A stretch of 64,000 nucleotides of DNA from Trinickia dinghuensis (GTDB taxonomy: Bacteria; Pseudomonadota; Gammaproteobacteria; Burkholderiales; Burkholderiaceae). Positions within the stretch are counted from its first letter, which is position 1; each line of letters begins with the position of its first letter. The stretch lies in the NCBI RefSeq assembly GCF_003367175.1, contig NZ_QRGA01000014.1, positions 62,001-126,000 on the forward strand. The letters run 5' to 3'. Shown one piece after another: positions 12,806-64,000 of the stretch. Under the pieces are notes generated by a model that was not told where the DNA came from, searched no databases, and worked only from the letters and a program-made list of their open reading frames with translations. Position numbers and translations under genes: made by a program.

Positions 12806-14269
12806 ATGAACGAAGAAATCCTGATCAATGTCACGCCGCAGGAAACGCGGGTCGCGCTGATCCAGCAAGGTGCGGTACAAGAGCTGCACGTCGAGCGCAC
12901 GTTGTCGCGCGGCCGCGTCGGCAACGTCTATCTTGGCAAGGTCGTGCGCGTGCTGCCGGGCATGCAGTCGGCCTTCATCGACATCGGCCTCGAGCGTGCC
13001 GCGTTCCTGCACGTCGCGGACATCTGGCATCCGCGCCTGGCCGGCGAGCATGCGAGCCCGCAGCAGCCGATCGAGAAGATCGTGTTCGAGGGCCAGACAT
13101 TGACCGTGCAGGTCATCAAAGATCCGATCGGCACCAAGGGCGCGCGGCTGTCGACGCAGATCAGCATCGCGGGTCGCACGCTCGTCTATCTGCCGCAAGA
13201 GCCGCACATCGGAATTTCGCAGAAGATCGAAAGCGAGGCCGAGCGCGAAGCGATTCGCGCTCGGTTGACCGCCGTGCTGCCCGCCGACGAGAAAGGCGGC
13301 TACATCGTCCGTACGATCGCGGAAGATGCGACGAGCGAAGAACTTGCGAGCGACGTGGCCTATCTGCGCAAGACGTGGGCGACCGTCGTCGCGCTGGCAC
13401 AGCGTCTGCCGCCCACGAGCCTGCTCTATCAGGATTTGAACTTGGCGCAGCGCGTGCTGCGCGACTTCGTCACGGACGAGACCTCGCGCATTCAAGTCGA
13501 TTCGCGCGAGACGTTTCAAATGCTGACCGAGTTCGCCGCCGAATTCACGCCGGCCGTCAGTTCGAAGCTTCATCACTATACGGGCGAGCGGCCGCTGTTC
13601 GATCTCTACAACATCGAGACGGAGATTCAGCGCGCGCTCTCGCGCCGCGTCGATTTGAAGTCGGGCGGCTATTTGATGATCGATCAAACCGAAGCGATGA
13701 CGACGATCGACGTCAACACGGGCGGCTACGTCGGGGCGCGCAACTTCGACGACACGATCTTCAAGACGAATCTCGAAGCCGCGCACACGATCGCGCGCCA
13801 GCTGCGGCTGCGCAATCTCGGCGGGATCATCATCATCGACTTCATCGACATGGAGAACGCGGAGCATCGCGATGCCGTGCTGGGCGAGTTGAAGAAGGCG
13901 CTCTCGCGCGACCGCACGCGCTCGACGGTGAACGGCTTCTCGCAGCTCGGGCTCGTGGAGATGACGCGCAAGCGCACGCGGGAATCGCTCGCGCATGTGC
14001 TCTGCGAGCCGTGTCCCACATGTGAGGGCAAAGGCCAGGTGAAGACGTCGCGCACGGTCTGCTACGACGTGCTGCGCGAGATTCTGCGCGAATCGCGGCA
14101 ATTCAACCCGCGCGAGTTTCGGGTAGTGGCCTCGCAGCAAGTCATCGACTTGTTTCTCGACGAAGAGTCGCAGCATCTGGCGATGCTCATCGATTTCATC
14201 GGCAAGCCTGTCTCACTGCAGGTGGAGTCGAATCTGAGTCAGGAACAGTACGACATCGTGTTGATGTAG
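12806..14269 (+). CDS. rng: Ribonuclease G
   Basis: This 487-residue endoribonuclease matures the 5' end of 16S rRNA and cleaves AU-rich RNA. It has an S1 domain (about 35-125, starting GNVYLGKVVRVLPGMQSAFIDIG), the RNase E/G catalytic core with TIDVNTGGYVGARNFDDTI carrying the Mg-binding Asp, IIIIDFIDM, and the zinc-link region CEPCPTCEGKG. The length fits RNase G rather than the longer RNase E: there is no C-terminal degradosome scaffold. It is the last gene of the purD-rng run; a stem-loop follows. Confidence 0.96.
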   Translation: MNEEILINVTPQETRVALIQQGAVQELHVERTLSRGRVGNVYLGKVVRVLPGMQSAFIDIGLERAAFLHVADIWHPRLAGEHASPQQPIEKIVFEGQTLTVQVIKDPIGTKGARLSTQISIAGRTLVYLPQEPHIGISQKIESEAEREAIRARLTAVLPADEKGGYIVRTIAEDATSEELASDVAYLRKTWATVVALAQRLPPTSLLYQDLNLAQRVLRDFVTDETSRIQVDSRETFQMLTEFAAEFTPAVSSKLHHYTGERPLFDLYNIETEIQRALSRRVDLKSGGYLMIDQTEAMTTIDVNTGGYVGARNFDDTIFKTNLEAAHTIARQLRLRNLGGIIIIDFIDMENAEHRDAVLGELKKALSRDRTRSTVNGFSQLGLVEMTRKRTRESLAHVLCEPCPTCEGKGQVKTSRTVCYDVLREILRESRQFNPREFRVVASQQVIDLFLDEESQHLAMLIDFIGKPVSLQVESNLSQEQYDIVLM

Positions 14270-14328: not shown

Positions 14329-14559
14329 TCAATGGCGCCACCCTCCGCCGTGCCCATGCCAGCCGCCGCCGAAGCCAATCCCGATGCCGACCGACGGCTC
14401 CGCGTAGTAGCCCGGATAGTAGGCGTAGCCCGGCGCGTAATAGTCGCCACCGTACCCGTAGTAGCCCGGTGCCGCCGGTGCGACGACGCATCCCGACAGC
14501 GAGCCGGTCAGCGCCACGGCCCCAAGCGAGATCATTAAGAAGACGAATGACTTGCGCAT
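14329..14559 (-). CDS. Small Gly/Tyr-rich lipoprotein
   Basis: This 76-residue protein has a type II signal peptide (MRKSFVFLMISLGAVALTGS) ending in the lipobox LSGC, so Cys24 would be lipidated and the protein anchored in a membrane. The mature part is almost only Gly, Tyr, Pro and His (GYYGYGGDYYAPGYAYYPGYY and GGGWHGHGGGWRH), a low-complexity repeat type seen in many Burkholderia envelope lipoproteins. AGGAGGGG precedes the ATG; a longer frame upstream is not supported. Function unknown. It is convergent with rng. Confidence 0.8.
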   Translation of the reverse strand: MRKSFVFLMISLGAVALTGSLSGCVVAPAAPGYYGYGGDYYAPGYAYYPGYYAEPSVGIGIGFGGGWHGHGGGWRH

Positions 14560-14773
14560 GATGCTCCCCTCCTGACTGTTGTTCTTTTTTAGACGAGCAT
14601 CACCCACGCCGCGTTCGGCCCCGAGTTGTGTCAGCGCGTAAAAGCTGTAATGGCCGCTGTAATACGACGAAACGACCATGCCGCGGACCGCGCCGCGCAT
14701 GGCCGTGCCCAATACGGGCCACATCGTTCACTTGCACCATGGGACGGCGATCCATACCTAAACGCATCGTAAT

Positions 14774-14803
14774 TTGCGTGCTTCCGGCCAAATCTCCTAC
14801 ACT
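14774..14803 (+). promoter_or_regulatory. Sigma-70-like promoter of the 52-residue membrane protein
   Basis: TTGCGT at 14774-14779 and TACACT at 14798-14803 are 18 bp apart, 34 bp before the start codon of the small membrane protein. Confidence 0.4.
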
Positions 14804-14836
14804 TTTTGTCAGTAGGGTGTTTGCAAGGAGGACATC

Positions 14837-14995
14837 ATGGCCGAATCGATCGCAAACATAGTCGTCGCCATCATTCTGGTGATCGCCGTCGTCATCATCG
14901 CGGCATCGCACTACCACCGCGAACACCAAAGGGCACGCTGGATGCACCGCATGGACCACAATCGGCTTTGGGACAGGCTCAGGCATCGGCATTGA
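14837..14995 (+). CDS. 52-residue single-span membrane protein
   Basis: A strong SD (AAGGAGG) 5 nt before the ATG and a promoter just upstream support this short gene. The protein is MAESIANI followed by one hydrophobic helix of about 17 residues (VVAIILVIAVVIIAASH) and a basic, His/Arg/Trp-rich cytoplasmic tail (HREHQRARWMHRMDHNRLW). No family recognised. It precedes another small gene in the same direction after 48 bp and may be co-transcribed with it. Confidence 0.6.
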   Translation: MAESIANIVVAIILVIAVVIIAASHYHREHQRARWMHRMDHNRLWDRLRHRH

Positions 14996-15043
14996 TGTGC
15001 AAGTCTCGTCGGACCGAGCTGCATGGAGCCCCAGGAGAACGAC

Positions 15044-15361
15044 ATGCCGGAAGAAGAAGATGCGCTGTGGCAAATGAGCCAATACGAAGGCTTTGAAATC
15101 CACGTGGCCCCGCTCGTGCGGGAACACGAGGCGCAATCGCGCCCGCCGGCTTCGGAGGGATACACCTATATCGGCTACGTCTGCCATCCGGGCGCCGATC
15201 CCAAACTGCCGGGCCACGCCGTGCCGTTTCACGCCGACGGCGACGTCGGCTTCGCGAACGCCGCCGCCGCCCTCGACGAGGGCATGCATATCGGCCGCAC
15301 CATCGTCGACGGGACGCACCCCGACCTGACCGTCCTCCCGCTCGTCACGGGCGGCGTGTGA
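15044..15361 (+). CDS. Conserved hypothetical protein, 105 residues
   Basis: The start at MPEEEDALWQMSQYEGFEIHV is preferred over an ATG 21 bp upstream because CAGGAGAAC lies directly before it. The protein is soluble and acidic, with a readable central segment (YTYIGYVCHPGADPKLPGHAVPFHADGD) and a small C-terminal part GMHIGRTIVDGTH. I do not recognise a domain. The even composition and clean codon pattern suggest a real conserved gene of Burkholderia type. It follows the 52-residue membrane protein and converges on msbA. Confidence 0.65.
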   Translation: MPEEEDALWQMSQYEGFEIHVAPLVREHEAQSRPPASEGYTYIGYVCHPGADPKLPGHAVPFHADGDVGFANAAAALDEGMHIGRTIVDGTHPDLTVLPLVTGGV

Positions 15362-57915: not shown

Positions 57916-58875
57916 TTAGATCGCGAACGTGGCGGCCGCCGATGGGGCACTTGATGTGCGCGGAGCATGCACCTCGCGCAGCGCCTTCACCCAGCGCCGC
58001 GCCGGCAACGCGAGCTTGTCCTCGATCAGCTCGGCGCGGCGCGCGAGCGCCGCATACGGAATCTCGAGCGCCGGGCCCGAGAAGGCGAGCGCGATGCGAT
58101 TGCCTTCGTGCACTTCGGGCAACGCGATCACACGGCCGTCGAACGCCGCGTTCAGATGCTTCATGTTGCGCACGAAGCTCGGATGGTCGCCGAACAGGTT
58201 GATCGTCGCGATGCCCGCGCCGGTCAGGCAGGCACGCACGGCACGGTAGAACGCGACCGTGTCGTGCACGGGGCCGCGGGCCGTCGCATCGTAAAGGTCG
58301 ATCTGCAGCGCGCCGATCGTGCCGTGGTTCGCGTGGTCGTTCACGAAATCCCAGGCATCGGTCTCATGCACCGTCAAACGCGCGTCGTCGTGCGGCAGCG
58401 CGAACATCGTGCGCGCGGCCACGACAACCGCGGGATTGAGTTCGACAGCCTCGACCCGCGCGCGCGGCAAGAAACGATAGGCGAACTTCGTCAAGGCCGC
58501 CGCCCCAAGACCAAGCTGCACGACGCGCTTCGGCGTTTCCAGAAACAGCAGCCACGCCATCATTTGCTGCGCGTATTCGAGCTCGATCCGGTCGGGCTTG
58601 TTGATGCGCATCGCACCCTGCACCCACTCGGTACCGAAGTGCAGGAAGCGCACGCCCCGCTCTTCGGAAAACGTGACGGGCGCATAGCGCGGCTTGCGCG
58701 GCATCTCGATGCGCGGGGGGACGCCGTCGCTCGAATCGTCGGCCGCGGCAGCGCGTGCCGCCCGCTTCGAAGACGACACCGCTTCGGCATGGCGCGTACG
58801 TTTGCTTTGCTCGTCGCGCCGGTCGCGCGCGAAAGCGCGCGCTTCGGCCGAAGCGCGCTTGATGAGATCGGTCAT
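57916..58875 (-). CDS. Spermidine synthase-like methyl/aminopropyltransferase
   Basis: This 319-residue protein has the SAM/decarboxy-SAM fold of spermidine synthases: VVQLGLGAAALTKFAYRFLPRARVEAVELNP, DARLTVHETDAWDFV, ALQIDLYDA and GAGIATINLFGDHPSF. The first 60 residues are basic and likely disordered. The family signature GGGxG of true SpeE is GLGAAA here, and the catalytic Asp is in IDLYD; so enzyme activity as a spermidine synthase is doubtful. It lies downstream of the right-hand biosynthetic operon but is separated by 167 bp with a hairpin and tandem repeats. Confidence 0.85.
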   Translation of the reverse strand: MTDLIKRASAEARAFARDRRDEQSKRTRHAEAVSSSKRAARAAAADDSSDGVPPRIEMPRKPRYAPVTFSEERGVRFLHFGTEWVQGAMRINKPDRIELEYAQQMMAWLLFLETPKRVVQLGLGAAALTKFAYRFLPRARVEAVELNPAVVVAARTMFALPHDDARLTVHETDAWDFVNDHANHGTIGALQIDLYDATARGPVHDTVAFYRAVRACLTGAGIATINLFGDHPSFVRNMKHLNAAFDGRVIALPEVHEGNRIALAFSGPALEIPYAALARRAELIEDKLALPARRWVKALREVHAPRTSSAPSAAATFAI

Positions 58876-59042: not shown

Positions 59043-59891
59043 CTAGCGGGGAGCCTGCGTGAAGCGGCGCAGCACGAGCAGCGGCAGCCGCGGCACGAAC
59101 TCGAACAACAGCCTCAGATACATCCACATCAGCAACACGTTGCTGCGAACGTAGCGGAAATGCGAAACGCCGCCCTCCTCGGGCTTGAAGTAGCGCACCG
59201 GCGCCTCGACGTTGATCGGCCTGACGCCGATCCAGCACAAGCGCACGGCCGCCTCGGGATCGAAGTCGAAACCGCGCATCCAATGCCGATTGGACATGAG
59301 CGCGCGCAGCGGCGCGATGGGATAGACGCGGAACCCGAAGAGCGAATCGCCGATGCCGGCCCAGAGCGTCTCGATGTTGGCGCACAGGTTCGACAGCTTG
59401 CGGCCGAGCACGCGCACGCGCGGCGCGCTCTCGTCGAACTTCGGACGCCCGAGCACCATGCAATCGGGCCGCGACATGGAAGCCGCCATGAACGCGCCGA
59501 TCAGATCGGCCGGATGCTGGCCGTCGGAATCCATCGTCAGCACGTGCGTGAAGCCGTGTGCCACCGCTTCGTCCAGCCCCGCGAGCACCGCCGCGCCCTT
59601 GCCGCGGTTGCGCGGCAACAGGATCACGCGCAGGTCCGAGTCGTCCTTCGCCATCGACTGAAGACGCTCGGCGCTCCCATCGGTGCTGCCGTCGACGACG
59701 ACCCAGACGGGCGCCCATTGCGCACGCGCCTGACGCACGGTGTCGTCGACCTTCACGCCCGGGTTGTAGCTCGGGATGAGGACGAGGTGGGTGGTCGAGG
59801 CTGCGGGCGTCGGCATAGTCGTACGGAGGGGCGGCTTCGTTCTCGGTGTCAGTCTTGGTCTCGGTCGTTCGATGAGGCTCGCATCGCTCAT
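59043..59891 (-). CDS. Glycosyltransferase family 2 (dolichol-phosphate-sugar synthase-like)
   Basis: This 282-residue GT2 enzyme has HLVLIPSYNPGVKVDDTVR, VVVDGSTDGSAERL and the DxD-like LTMDSDGQHPADLIGAFM. A hydrophobic C-terminal segment (VLLMWMYLRLLFEFVPRLPLLVL) may anchor it to the membrane. Its 4-bp ATGA overlap with the chorismatase gene puts it in the same operon. GT2 proteins of this type occur in aryl-polyene and xanthomonadin clusters, where they are thought to glycosylate or lipid-link the pigment; this role is inferred. Confidence 0.9.
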   Translation of the reverse strand: MSDASLIERPRPRLTPRTKPPLRTTMPTPAASTTHLVLIPSYNPGVKVDDTVRQARAQWAPVWVVVDGSTDGSAERLQSMAKDDSDLRVILLPRNRGKGAAVLAGLDEAVAHGFTHVLTMDSDGQHPADLIGAFMAASMSRPDCMVLGRPKFDESAPRVRVLGRKLSNLCANIETLWAGIGDSLFGFRVYPIAPLRALMSNRHWMRGFDFDPEAAVRLCWIGVRPINVEAPVRYFKPEEGGVSHFRYVRSNVLLMWMYLRLLFEFVPRLPLLVLRRFTQAPR

Positions 59892-61054
59892 GCGAGGCGC
59901 TCCACGCCATGTCCCGCGCTCGCTTCGATTTCGAGCAGCAGATCGGCCCGGCAGATCTCGGCGTGCAAGTACAGCGCGCGCAGCGGCGAGGCGCACCGCG
60001 CCCGCAGCATGTCGTCGATCGCGGCAAGCGCATCGACGTCGTGCGGATCGCGCACATAGACCTTGTACGTCAGGTCCGACAGCGCCGGATGGCCGTGTCC
60101 CTTGCGCGCGGCTTCCGCGAGCACCGCATCGATATTGGCGAGCGTCTCGCGCAGTTGCGCCATCAGATCGCCGCGGTGAACGGTTTCGTGCCCGACGATG
60201 CTCGCCGTGCCCGAAACGAACAGCGTAGGCACCGCGCCCGGCCGGCGCAAGCCGGGCCAAGCCGCCGCGCGGGCGAACGTCGGTGCGCTCGGACCGTATT
60301 GCGCCGGATAGCGATACGCGCTGACCTGCCGCGGGTTTTCGACGGCGTCCGAGGCCGAGCGCGTGGCGAGGAACGAGACGACGAGCGGAATCGCCGGGGG
60401 GGCATCGCCCTCGATCCGCACTGACGCGCCCAGTGCGCTCGCGGCCGGCACGCTGTCGATGACGGGCCGGCCGAACGCCTGGAAAACCCGCTGGCGTCCG
60501 GTATTGAATTGACGATAGCGCTCACTGCCGAACTGGGCGGCATTGATGGCCGGCACGACGTTCCAGATCCGCAGGGGATGGCGCATGCCCAGCGTGTCGA
60601 GCACGCGAAAAATCGCTTCATACGCCGCGTAGGCGGCGCGCTCGAGCGGCGTCGCGCCGTCCGCATGCTCGATACCGGCCGCCCCCTCGTGCACCGAGAC
60701 GCTCCCGAACACGATACCGGCCGCTTCGCTGAACCGGTAGCGCAGCGGCCCGTGCCCGCCGCTGACGAGATCGGCGGCATCGCATTGCCAGATCTCGAAG
60801 CAGGCGTCGCCCGCTTCATCGGCTCGCTGCGAAGCCGGCACGAGCCGCGCCATGCATTCGGGCGCGAGCGGCAAATCGGGCGCCGCCTCGGCCAAGAGCG
60901 GCCAGCATGAGGCGTCGCCGAAGCACGCGGCGCCGAGCGCGCCCGGGAACGTCTCGGCGAACGCTTCGCGCCGGGCGTGCGCGGGCCGCTCCCGCAAGAG
61001 CGCGGCCAGCCGCGCGTGTTCGAGACGAATCAGTTTGAGCGTTGCCGCGGACAT
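59888..61054 (-). CDS. xanB2: Chorismatase of the XanB2/FkbO/Hyg5 family
   Basis: This 388-residue protein resembles the pteridine-dependent-dioxygenase-like chorismatases. XanB2 converts chorismate to 3- and 4-hydroxybenzoate, the starter for xanthomonadin/aryl polyenes and for ubiquinone. The visible core includes LRYRFSEAAGIVFGSVSV, HPLRIWNVVPAIN and the GRQRVFQAFGR stretch. The C-terminal half has the YjgF/Rid-like fold of this family (LFVSGTASIVGHETVHRGDL, TYKVYVRDPHDVDAL, LHAEICRADLLLEIEA). The gene lies 8 bp after the FAD enzyme gene and overlaps the GT2 gene. Whether the product is 3-HBA or 4-HBA cannot be told. Confidence 0.87.
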   Translation of the reverse strand: MSAATLKLIRLEHARLAALLRERPAHARREAFAETFPGALGAACFGDASCWPLLAEAAPDLPLAPECMARLVPASQRADEAGDACFEIWQCDAADLVSGGHGPLRYRFSEAAGIVFGSVSVHEGAAGIEHADGATPLERAAYAAYEAIFRVLDTLGMRHPLRIWNVVPAINAAQFGSERYRQFNTGRQRVFQAFGRPVIDSVPAASALGASVRIEGDAPPAIPLVVSFLATRSASDAVENPRQVSAYRYPAQYGPSAPTFARAAAWPGLRRPGAVPTLFVSGTASIVGHETVHRGDLMAQLRETLANIDAVLAEAARKGHGHPALSDLTYKVYVRDPHDVDALAAIDDMLRARCASPLRALYLHAEICRADLLLEIEASAGHGVERLA

Positions 61055-61062
61055 CGAATGCC

Positions 61063-62406
61063 TCACCCTGCCGCCACGGCTGCCTCGTCGGCTTGCCGCA
61101 GCATACGGCGGCGCGCGCGCCACGCACGCAGCGAGCGGCGCGCGGCGAGTACGGCCGACAGGTAGTAGATGGCCTTGAACGTACGCACCGACCGCCAGAT
61201 CGGCGTGTCGTCGAAAATGTCTCCGGCGAGCACCGACAGCAGCGCTTCCTTCACACGGAACACATTGCGCGGATTCATGAACAGATCGCGCATCGCCGGG
61301 GTCGTCATCCGGTAGATGAACCAGGAGAACACCTTCGGCCCGCGACGGACCTCGCGATCGAATTTGGCGAGCGCCGCGCCGGCCCGGGCCGGATCGCGCA
61401 GGCACGCATCGACGGTTTCGGCGCCAATGAAGGCGCTCTGCATCGCGAGCATCACGCCGGTCGAGAACACGGGATCGATGAACGAGAACGCATCGCCAAG
61501 CAGCACGAAGTTGCGCCCGTGCGTCACCTCGCCCGAGTACGAGAAGTTGCCGGTCGCCTCGACCTCGGTTGCAAGCTCCGCCCCGTTAAGCCGCTCCGCG
61601 AGCGGCACGCACATGGCGATCGTTTCGAGGAAAAACGCCTCGATCGACGTACCGCGCGGACGCTGCTTCAGATAATGCGGCCAGACGACCGCACCGATAC
61701 TGGTCGCGCCGTCGGAAAGCGGAATGAACCAGAACCAGCCGTGCTCGAACCAGTAGATCGTGATGTTGCCTTCATCGGCGCCCGGGTGGCGTCGTGCGCC
61801 GGTGAAGTGAGCGTATAGCGCGCTGCTGTTGTGCTTCTTGTTGCGCTGCTTCGTGCGAAACCGGTTGGCCAGCAACGTATCGCGCCCCGACGCATCGACG
61901 ACGAAGCGAGCGCGGCAGCGGTACGGCCGGCCGTCGTCATGCGTCCCGCTTAGGATCGCGCCGCTGTGATCGTCGAGGAATTGCACGTCACGGACTTGGC
62001 ATCCTTCGACGACGTCGGCACCGTGAGCCGCCGCATTGCGCAGCAGGATCTCATCGAGCTCCGAGCGGCGGACTTGGTAGGCATGAGGCATCGATTTGTC
62101 CCACGCCTGCGCGAAAGGGAATCGTTCGAGGCGGCCGCCGTGCTGAGGCGAGACGAATTCCGCGGCCGGCTTCATCATGCCGATCTCGCGGACGGCCTCG
62201 CCGACGCCGAGCCGCTCGAACAGCCGCAAATTCGCCGGCAACAGCGATTCGCCGATGTGGAAGCGCGGATGACGCGCTTTTTCGAGCAGCTGCACGCGGT
62301 GGCCGGCCTTCGCCAGCAAAGTCGCCGCCGTCGAACCCGCCGGCCCGCCGCCGATTACGGCAACGTCCCAGCTCGGCATGTCCTCGCAGCTTGATTGATT
62401 CGTCAC
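61063..62406 (-). CDS. Flavin-dependent halogenase-like oxidoreductase
   Basis: This 447-residue FAD protein has the dinucleotide motif VAVIGGGPAGSTAATLLAKAG and HIGESLLP. It has a Lys at residue 79 (GMMKPAAEF), matching the catalytic Lys of flavin halogenases in place and number, and the halogenase signature WxWxIP at 224-229 (GWFWFIPL). GDAFSFIDPVFSTGV is the second FAD motif. Homologues in xanthomonadin clusters (XanB1) are annotated as reductase/halogenase. The GTG start follows AGGAG. Activity as a true halogenase is inferred; a non-halogenating reductase is the alternative. Confidence 0.87.
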   Translation of the reverse strand: MTNQSSCEDMPSWDVAVIGGGPAGSTAATLLAKAGHRVQLLEKARHPRFHIGESLLPANLRLFERLGVGEAVREIGMMKPAAEFVSPQHGGRLERFPFAQAWDKSMPHAYQVRRSELDEILLRNAAAHGADVVEGCQVRDVQFLDDHSGAILSGTHDDGRPYRCRARFVVDASGRDTLLANRFRTKQRNKKHNSSALYAHFTGARRHPGADEGNITIYWFEHGWFWFIPLSDGATSIGAVVWPHYLKQRPRGTSIEAFFLETIAMCVPLAERLNGAELATEVEATGNFSYSGEVTHGRNFVLLGDAFSFIDPVFSTGVMLAMQSAFIGAETVDACLRDPARAGAALAKFDREVRRGPKVFSWFIYRMTTPAMRDLFMNPRNVFRVKEALLSVLAGDIFDDTPIWRSVRTFKAIYYLSAVLAARRSLRAWRARRRMLRQADEAAVAAG

Positions 62407-62514
62407 AGATCTGCTCCTCGCGGCTGGACCGCCCGGGCCGCCGGCTCGGTCCGATTACGCTCGTACGTTCGTTTAGGTTCCGCGGCGGCCCGGCCGAACC
62501 GCCGGCGCAGCTAA

Positions 62515-63231
62515 CTAAACCTGACCACCATTGACGGACATGACCTGACCGGTCACGAAACCAGCCGCGTCCGAGACGAGATACGCCACCATCGCGGCGA
62601 CCTCGTCGGCCCGGCCGCTCCTGCCGACCGGCACCAGTTGCTTGACGCGCTCGGGAGGAAACACAGCCTCGGTCATCGGCGATTCGATAATGCCGGGAGC
62701 CACCGCATTGACCGTAATGCCGCGCGAGGCCAGCTCGAGCGCGAGGGACTTCGTCGCACCGATGAGCCCCGCCTTCGCCGCGGCGTAGTTCGTTTGCCCG
62801 CGATTGCCGGTCAACGCCGACACCGAAGCGATATTGACGATGCGCCCTCGGCGCGTGCGTATCATCGGCAACAGCAGCGGCTGCGTGACGTTGAAAAAAC
62901 CGTTCAGCGTGACGTCGATGACGCTGCGCCATTGCTGCGACGACATGCCGGCCATGGGCGCGTCGTCATGGATGCCCGCGTTGTTGACAAGAATTTGCAC
63001 GGGGCCGTCTTCGATCACGCGTTCGAGCGCGGCGCGGGCCGCCGCCTCGTCCGTGACGTCGAACGAGACCGCATGGGCCGCGCCGCCGGCCGCGACAAGG
63101 CGCGCGGCTACCGCCTCGGCGGCCTCGACGTTGCGATGCGCGTGCACGTAGAGCTCATGGCCGGCTCGAGCAAGCGCTTCGCAGATCGCTTGCCCCAATG
63201 CACCGCTGCCGCCTGTCACCAATGCCTTCAT
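62515..63231 (-). CDS. 3-oxoacyl-ACP reductase (FabG-type ketoreductase)
   Basis: This 238-residue SDR has the NADPH-binding start ALVTGGSGALGQAICEALARAG, NNAG, the catalytic Ser in NIASVSALTG and intact YxxxK (TNYAAAKAG). The C-terminus is typical: PVGRSGRADEVAAMVAYLVSDAAGFVTGQVMSVNGG. Located directly after an acyl carrier protein gene (20 bp), it is the likely dedicated ketoreductase for polyene chain extension rather than the housekeeping FabG. Confidence 0.92.
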   Translation of the reverse strand: MKALVTGGSGALGQAICEALARAGHELYVHAHRNVEAAEAVAARLVAAGGAAHAVSFDVTDEAAARAALERVIEDGPVQILVNNAGIHDDAPMAGMSSQQWRSVIDVTLNGFFNVTQPLLLPMIRTRRGRIVNIASVSALTGNRGQTNYAAAKAGLIGATKSLALELASRGITVNAVAPGIIESPMTEAVFPPERVKQLVPVGRSGRADEVAAMVAYLVSDAAGFVTGQVMSVNGGQV

Positions 63232-63251
63232 CGGGACTCGTGCCTTGGCAA

Positions 63252-63515
63252 TCAGCGAACGCGATGCTCGGCCACGTACGTTGCCAAAGCACCGAGTGTC
63301 GCGAAGATTTTCGCGTTGTCCGGATTGTCCGAGCGCAGCTCGAAGCCATACTTCTTCGAGATCAGAAGCGCGATTTCGAGGATATCGATGGAATCGAGCC
63401 CGAAGCCTTCGCCATAAAGGATCGTATCCCCTGATACGTCGGTGATCTGAATATCCTCGAGGTTCAATTCGCGGATCATCAGCTCGGCGAGTTCTCTTTC
63501 CAGTTCATTCATCAT
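63252..63515 (-). CDS. Dedicated acyl carrier protein
   Basis: This 87-residue ACP has the phosphopantetheine site GFGLDSIDILEIALLI with Ser42. It is acidic, has the usual four-helix pattern (ELERELAELMIRELN ... YGFELRSDN), and its C-terminus is ATLGALATYVAEHRVR. It is unlike the housekeeping AcpP and closer to ACPs of aryl-polyene/dialkylresorcinol-type clusters. Either of two adjacent ATGs may be used. It is the first gene of the minus-strand operon. Confidence 0.92.
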   Translation of the reverse strand: MMNELERELAELMIRELNLEDIQITDVSGDTILYGEGFGLDSIDILEIALLISKKYGFELRSDNPDNAKIFATLGALATYVAEHRVR

Positions 63516-63544
63516 ACTTACGGCAGACTGACTGCGGGGAGGCG

Positions 63545-63586
63545 CGGCTTTACCGGGCAACGCGTGCGAAGCCCGGTAAAGCCGCT
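63545..63586 (-). repeat. 15-bp perfect inverted repeat in the ACP leader
   Basis: GCGGCTTTACCGGGC and GCCCGGTAAAGCCGC are fully complementary, with a 12-nt loop (AACGCGTGCGAA). It lies 30 nt upstream of the ACP start codon, without a U-tract. Confidence 0.8.
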
Positions 63587-63665
63587 TGCAGGCCCTCCCA
63601 AGCAATAAGGGGGCCCGTTCAAGTTCGAGGGATTCTAGACGATGCCTTTCGTGACGTATACTCGG

Positions 63666-63684
63666 AAAGGTTACTGAATGAAGC
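63666..63684. repeat. Direct repeat copy 1
   Basis: AAAGGTTACTGAATGAAGC; it matches the copy at 63799-63817 in 16 of 19 positions. Confidence 0.6.
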
Positions 63685-63798
63685 GGCCGAACCACCGTTC
63701 GGCTTTGCCTAAAGACCGGGCCGACGCACGCCACGCATGGCGGTACAGCCCGTGCGGCCGAATTGCCGCACACCGCGGGTACGCCGATCGCTGTACAA

Positions 63799-63817
63799 AA
63801 AGGTTACAAAACGAAGC
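63799..63817. repeat. Direct repeat copy 2
   Basis: AAAGGTTACAAAACGAAGC, 133 bp from copy 1 in the same orientation. The constant part AAAGGTTAC...GAAGC could be a regulator site. Confidence 0.6.
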
Positions 63818-63975
63818 ACCGGCGCGACGCGAACTCCGTATGATCCATCGAACGCAGCAATCGCAGTTGCCGGCGAGGATTACCGGGGCGTTATCGGAAT
63901 GGCATTGGTTTCTTTTACTTTCGTACGGTTTCATTCGGGTGTCGCAGAACATCGTTCGCAGCGAGGAGACATCGA

Positions 63976-64000
63976 GTGAATCGGTCAGGTTCGATCTCTA
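63976..64000 (+). CDS. Start of a divergent gene (cut by the right edge)
   Basis: A GTG follows GAGGAGACATCGA, a good ribosome site, and opens MNRSGSIS to the end of the window. Only eight codons are seen, so the product is unknown. If real it is the first plus-strand gene of the divergent pigment-type cluster. Confidence 0.35.

Follow-up and report, generated by a model that had tools for sequence, protein, structure and literature searches.

The DNA considered here (the window, 64,000 nucleotides, G000:C6:62001-126000 in our numbering) comes from the 7.37 Mb genome of Trinickia dinghuensis, which is assembled in 49 contigs. At its right end, five minus-strand genes encode an acyl carrier protein (ACP), a FabG-type ketoreductase, a halogenase-like flavoenzyme, a chorismatase, and a GT2 glycosyltransferase, and to the right of the ACP gene a divergent plus-strand operon begins that ends ~10.2 kb past the window edge (Table 1). 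These five genes are very probably the left arm of a divergent type II polyketide cluster for an aryl polyene of the xanthomonadin/arcuflavin kind. All five frames are open and tightly packed: GT2 and chorismatase genes are 71 bp apart (or overlap by 4 bp if the GT2 frame is read from the ATG at 59891), chorismatase and halogenase-like genes 8 bp, halogenase-like and FabG genes 135 bp (108 bp from the GTG start), and FabG and ACP genes 20 bp. Frames, families, and spacing agree with a preliminary description of this DNA, and the catalytic features it had reported were recovered as well, i.e., Ser42 of the ACP, N83/S136/Y149/K153 of the ketoreductase, and GGGPAG (at residue 10), Lys70 and GWFWFIP (at residue 214) of the flavoenzyme. 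The PDB chains nearest to the latter were 3e1t, 8zop, and 3i3l (CmlS), and Lys70 lines up with a lysine of CmlS that we take to be catalytic.

Table 1. Genes and non-coding features of the divergent cluster in window coordinates; positions beyond 64,000 are window equivalents (position in the right-hand locus L002 plus 56999).
Feature	Position	Strand	Basis
GT2 glycosyltransferase, 257 aa	59043-59816	-	PF00535 Glycos_transf_2, E 1.2e-17; junction alignment with four relatives
Chorismatase of polyene-cluster (ArcB/XanB2-like) type, 388 aa	59888-61054	-	PF21168 FkbO_Hyg5-like_N, E 1.8e-23; TIGR04444; PDB neighbours; tree
FADH2-dependent halogenase-like flavoenzyme, 438 aa	61063-62379 (or GTG start 62406)	-	PF04820 Trp_halogenase, E 6.1e-35; PDB neighbours
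FabG-type ketoreductase, 238 aa	62515-63231	-	NF004200, 344.4 bits (cut-off 273 exceeded); PF00106 adh_short, 1.3e-54
ACP, 87 aa, Ser42 as phosphopantetheine site	63252-63515	-	NF006617/PRK09184, 146.2 bits (cut-off 70 exceeded); PF00550 PP-binding, 2.8e-05
Divergent promoter region, non-coding	63516-63975	.	Blocks common to five genus genomes, aligned by eye
Membrane protein opening the right-hand operon, 221 aa (first codons in the window, 63976-64000)	63976-64641	+	L002:6977-7642; no Pfam match
AMP-ligase fused to marginal ApeI/FabA-like dehydratase domain	64703-66481	+	AMP-binding; FabA, 23.1 bits
LpxL-type acyltransferase	66478-67476	+	Lip_A_acyltrans
LolA-like protein	67480-68130	+	PF19574 LolA_3
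MMPL exporter	68127-70685	+	PF03176
Polysaccharide deacetylase	70682-71593	+	Polysacc_deac_1
Ketosynthase	71622-72836	+	PF00109/PF02801 ketoacyl-synt; PRK09185 over curated cut-off
Ketosynthase-like (chain-length-factor) partner	72833-73684	+	PF13723 Ketoacyl-synt_2
Putative second dehydratase (ApeP-like)	73681-74211	+	Position and our reading; no family match

The right arm supplies most of what defines an aryl polyene cluster. A ketosynthase (PF00109/PF02801) with Cys162/His291/His324 in place lies next to its ketosynthase-like partner (PF13723), the ACP and the ketoreductase are joined by an ACP/CoA ligase, and a LolA-like protein (PF19574) is accompanied by an MMPL/RND exporter (PF03176). 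The NCBIfam models PRK09184 (ACP) and PRK09185 (ketosynthase) both score over their curated cut-offs, and their names mention no pigment function. Of the two dehydratases usual in such clusters, one may be represented by a marginal FabA/ApeI-like domain and the other is a putative one, named by its position. The preliminary description had placed the missing genes to the right and had set a ketosynthase and a dehydratase within about 20 kb as its test; ketosynthase, ligase-dehydratase, acyltransferase, LolA and MMPL genes were indeed found within ~10.2 kb, with the dehydratase domain being marginal, the operon running in the opposite direction, and the expected 4HBT-type thioesterase absent. 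A PlsC-type acyltransferase, deleted here between the chorismatase and GT2 genes, was treated as common rather than defining, because 22/22 Burkholderia and Paraburkholderia loci (L056-L077) also lack a PlsC match.

The five-gene order, plus the extra PlsC gene, is repeated in all four further genus members of our sample that have a chorismatase. In addition, third codon positions were at least 1.8 times more divergent than first or second positions in each of the ten cluster genes compared with two relatives (L016 and L018; 0.24-0.41 vs. 0.00-0.19), a comparison that covered all genes but the deacetylase, both ketosynthases and the second dehydratase. Since the order recurs within the genus and ten genes show this third-position excess, the arrangement is not due to chance.

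The chorismatase falls outside the FkbO and Hyg5 types. Its C-terminus resembles L-PSP/Rid proteins (E 5.3e-05, under the Pfam cut-off), the PDB chains closest to the enzyme are 5ag3/5a3k and FkbO (4bps), and it reaches 186.5 bits with the FkbO/Hyg5 model TIGR04444 (cut-off 325), compared to 233.1 bits for the enzyme of Azoarcus sp. Aa7 and 400.9 bits for that of locus L032. The residues Gly282, Cys368, Glu375, and Glu377 are present, and the enzyme keeps the residues that are invariant in 14 aligned relatives. Glycine and cysteine occupy positions 282 and 368 in all 14 and also in Hyg5, whereas FkbO, representing the CH-I type, has alanine at both. Three residues have been described as characteristic of Hyg5-type enzymes (PMC7170507); by our alignment Gly282 and Cys368 appear to match two of them, the third not being placed. 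In a tree of 96 rows, FkbO, Hyg5 and the chorismatases of L032 and L034 were split with 100/100 support from the 92 others, i.e., the window chorismatase and 91 polyene-type enzymes, although long branches were flagged (among them FkbO 1.36 and L123 1.32) and support was weak at many deep forks. Within the large group, of which Azoarcus sp. Aa7 and Aromatoleum are members too, the window enzyme stands with its own genus, adjoining Burkholderia and Paraburkholderia. An FkbO or Hyg5 type was rejected on the basis of this tree, and FkbO also because of its alanines. The placement expected in the preliminary description thus held as far as the separation from FkbO and Hyg5 is concerned, in a tree where XanB2 and ArcB of Azoarcus BH72 themselves were not rows; kinship and gene context together suggest the label XanB2-type. 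The reaction of a chorismatase cannot be read from an alignment alone, according to PMC3949708. The two Hyg5-like enzymes (L032 and L034, both of genus g10) probably belong to another pathway, as the polyene ligase lies on a different contig in these genomes.

In the pathway suggested by these genes, the chorismatase would convert chorismate to 3-hydroxybenzoate (3-HBA), its presumed main product, and perhaps to 4-hydroxybenzoate (4-HBA) too, which the ligase domain would load onto the ACP. Extension with malonyl units to a conjugated polyene would then fall to FabG, the ketosynthase pair and the dehydratases, and the aryl end may be halogenated by the flavoenzyme, which carries halogenase motifs. 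GT2 and the LpxL-type acyltransferase would build or attach a lipid anchor, and LolA together with the MMPL pump would take part in the transport to the outer membrane. Nearly the whole set of genes for a membrane pigment of xanthomonadin type is present at this locus, and the aromatic end of the pigment probably derives from chorismate through an enzyme encoded in the operon itself. The chorismate-derived aryl polyene of the preliminary description is supported by the right-hand core genes as well as by the kinship of the chorismatase.

A close functional parallel is the set of arcuflavin polyene genes (arcA-arcX) of Azoarcus sp. BH72, for which PMC3949708 gives a halogenase, XanB2-type chorismatase, glycosyl transferase, acyltransferase, ketoreductase, dehydratase, a protein with an N-terminal ketosynthase domain, ketosynthase, deacetylase, exporter, LolA, ligase and ACP, all with counterparts in T. 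dinghuensis. There, ArcB was reported to form 3-HBA from chorismate, and ArcT to exchange ATP label with 3-HBA and to act on some 4-substituted benzoic acids as well. T. dinghuensis differs in having its polyene genes in one locus instead of two, a ligase fused to the dehydratase, one acyltransferase less (the deleted PlsC), no methyltransferase among the proteins scanned, and a single KAS III. In Xanthomonas, the pig cluster for xanthomonadin (XanB2, Xcc4014) is likewise a chorismatase-primed type II polyketide aryl polyene cluster with a halogenase gene and a single ACP; this likeness was drawn without the XanB2 sequence, and the T. dinghuensis genome has UbiC as well. For apeA-R of E. coli CFT073 (PMC8253772), counterparts by predicted function were recognised for ApeC/O, H, I, J, L, M, P, and Q, but not for ApeB, ApeD, and ApeK, whereas the chorismatase and halogenase are additional; a search for ApeN (PF11659) gave no match in any genome, controls included, and is uninformative for that reason. 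Halogenases are variably present among such clusters, according to PMC3691225. Aryl polyene clusters were reported from 11/11 Trinickia species (PMC8506256), so the cluster of T. dinghuensis is largely expected; no open-access title or abstract found treats it in this genus.

Several observations weigh against this assignment. UbiC is encoded in the genome, which makes 4-HBA available as a further starter. The PlsC gene is gone at window positions 59816-59891 (compare L016:11006-11815), as seen in a junction alignment with four relatives, and in E. coli the loss of ApeD leaves partial pigment together with late intermediates that are believed to attach poorly (PMC8253772). The dehydratase domain borne by the ligase scores 23.1 bits with FabA at a cut-off of 23 and stays under the cut-off for ApeI-like domains, and the second dehydratase (L002:16682-17209) matches no Pfam or NCBIfam model. 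A methyltransferase was not found among the proteins scanned, and a 4HBT-type thioesterase is absent at the cluster, with no PF13279 match on the contig. Finally, among the best 80 named loci of at least 561 chorismatase relatives, to which the counts of chorismatase loci given here refer, five loci (L110, L116, L117, L126, and L127, each of at least 20 kb) hold the chorismatase as the sole gene of the set. The only PF03061 match on the contig is at C6:255036, ~120 kb from the cluster.

In favour of the assignment, at least one further polyene core gene (ketosynthase, ketosynthase-like, MMPL, LolA, ligase, deacetylase, or second dehydratase) was found in 59 of the same 80 loci. GT2 was found in 71, PlsC in 46, and the halogenase in 32. 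The 21 loci lacking a core gene comprise five shorter than 10 kb, eight of 10-16 kb, and eight of at least 20 kb. PlsC and the halogenase were found in none of the 22 Burkholderia and Paraburkholderia loci and in 46 and 32, respectively, of the remaining 58.

The alternative that survives best, although we regard it as unlikely, is an aryl polyene primed mainly by 4-HBA derived from UbiC, as predicted for E. coli, with the chorismatase being accessory or redundant. The presence of UbiC in T. dinghuensis is in line with it, and the chorismatase as sole source of 4-HBA in this organism was rejected on the same ground. Across 150 genomes of the family, the chorismatase was matched in 23 and UbiC in 135, while the ligase-dehydratase was matched below 1e-100 in 52, including all 23 with the chorismatase, which speaks for the polyene assignment itself; these searches scored at most 12 (chorismatase) and eight (ligase) first-pass candidates per genome, so absences are no proof, and the 52, 34, and 18 genomes distinguished by the ligase threshold of 1e-100 were tallied manually. 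All 34 ligase genomes without a chorismatase on the ligase contig have a UbiC match, and one g12 genome (L039) retains its cluster with just two end pieces of a chorismatase at 12972-13205, which match the L020 enzyme over residues 1-36 (E 1.2e-07) and 332-378 (E 3e-12). Against priming by UbiC stand the constraint on the chorismatase within the genus, its retention of the residues invariant in the 14 relatives, and the related ligase ArcT, which acts on 3-HBA, though on some 4-substituted benzoic acids too. A cluster primed by its own chorismatase is preferred here.

The preliminary description had also opposed hydroxybenzoate made in the operon to the use of an ammonia lyase. The chorismatase of the cluster agrees with the former, but an aromatic ammonia-lyase (C10:107248-108603; NCBIfam matches to ammonia-lyases/aminomutases, none over cut-off) lies in a second polyene-type cluster of the same genome (L038:21-12972, G000:C10:101020-113971). 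That cluster has homologues (28-50% identity) of FabG, the ketosynthase, MMPL, LolA, acyltransferase, GT2, ligase-dehydratase, membrane protein, ACP, and PlsC, and also a 4HBT-type thioesterase. The lyase shares 88% identity with one encoded in the equivalent region of another genome (G044, L053) and has no match in any of the 14 chorismatase-less clusters examined.

Less probable still is a decaying cluster, in which the loss of PlsC would leave no anchored pigment and the pathway would be on its way out. PlsC (PF01553) lies between the chorismatase and GT2 genes in 4/4 other chorismatase-bearing genomes of the genus (L016-L019, of which L017 and L019 are the same loci as L054 and L055) and is gone in T. 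dinghuensis, where the ATG at 59891 and a few similar codons run in frame into GT2. This extension seems to be the leftover start of the deleted gene, although an assembly error may lie behind the deletion. However, the remaining genes of the cluster have open reading frames, the ten that were compared show constraint, and the closest PlsC homologue elsewhere in the genome (34% identity) is that of the second cluster on contig 10. Moreover, PlsC went unmatched in the 20-kb stretches of 9/9 g12 (Burkholderia) and 3/3 g17 clusters, and its absence is therefore tolerated; a match is present in the 20-kb stretch of L029. A polyene-dialkylresorcinol hybrid, i.e., arcuflavin proper as in Azoarcus, is very improbable: T. 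dinghuensis shares the polyene genes, but the lone PF08541 (KAS III) match of the genome is a 329-aa frame of FabH size, so a DarB-like enzyme of this family, which DarB presumably belongs to, is lacking (DarA was not searched for).

Returning to the chorismatase-primed cluster, its comparison across the family may point to an exchangeable starter gene. The chorismatase is on the contig of the ligase in 18 of the 23 genomes, 15 with and three without UbiC, and on another contig in five (genus g10). For 14 of the 34 chorismatase-less clusters, the absence was verified in full 20-kb stretches: all 14 have the ketosynthase, ketosynthase-like protein, second dehydratase, deacetylase, MMPL, LolA, acyltransferase, ligase, ACP, and GT2, 13 the membrane protein, seven FabG, one (L046) both the halogenase and PlsC, and none an intact chorismatase. 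Between its halogenase and PlsC genes, L046 carries a 285-aa frame (14475-15332) that we read as MipA/OmpV-like, placed like arcC near arcA and arcD of Azoarcus.

On a ligase tree of 36 rows, which left out L104 (no long match), the repeats L054-L056, and genera g17 and g18 (ligase outside the stretches), the presence of a linked chorismatase required seven changes, at least four of them forced by well-supported branches (6-7 in bootstraps), compared to a mean of 11.3 with shuffled labels, of which 4/500 were as low as seven. The halogenase required five changes (at least three forced) and PlsC six (at least four forced). The chorismatase thus seems clustered on the tree yet repeatedly switched, and looks like a module gained or lost several times within a steady pigment cluster, a mildly new observation. 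PlsC was hardly clustered (70/500 shuffles as low), which counts against a simple module story, as do the long rows L120 (5.35), L129 (1.69), and L051 (1.43). Three genomes of genus g17 (G016/L030, G037/L033, and G053/L031; one 83% complete) have a cluster chorismatase and no UbiC match, which may go back to a single event. We tentatively propose, as a possibility short of an even chance, that the Burkholderiaceae chorismatase is a plug-in starter module, so that one conserved pigment machinery would use either 3-HBA from the cluster or 4-HBA from UbiC and lineages would switch repeatedly by gain or loss of this one gene, with the halogenase and PlsC as further optional inserts, and that in g17 the cluster chorismatase also supplies the 4-HBA for ubiquinone. 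If so, a pigment gene would be tied to respiration in g17. No open-access title or abstract found treats starter-module switching in these genera. As the pigment operons of close relatives differ by single genes (chorismatase, halogenase, PlsC), the choice of starter and the role of PlsC in anchoring become testable.

Some minor features were observed around the two arms. The polyamine aminopropyltransferase-like gene at 57916-58875 (NF003380, 187.2 bits, under the cut-off of 304) was rejected as a cluster member, being next to GT2 in 3/5 genus clusters and unmatched in the two remaining 20-kb stretches. Blocks of conservation, among them a repeated AAAGGTTAC-like motif, were seen by eye across the divergent promoter region in 5/5 aligned genomes of the genus, and a regulator common to both operons is possible. 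Directly upstream of the ACP gene, a perfect 15-bp inverted repeat with a 12-base loop (63544-63585) is absent from the alignment of the four other genus genomes. At the far end of the right arm, a short tandem repeat encoding LDPP units (L002:16700-16753, window-equivalent 73699-73752) lies near the N-terminus of the putative second dehydratase.

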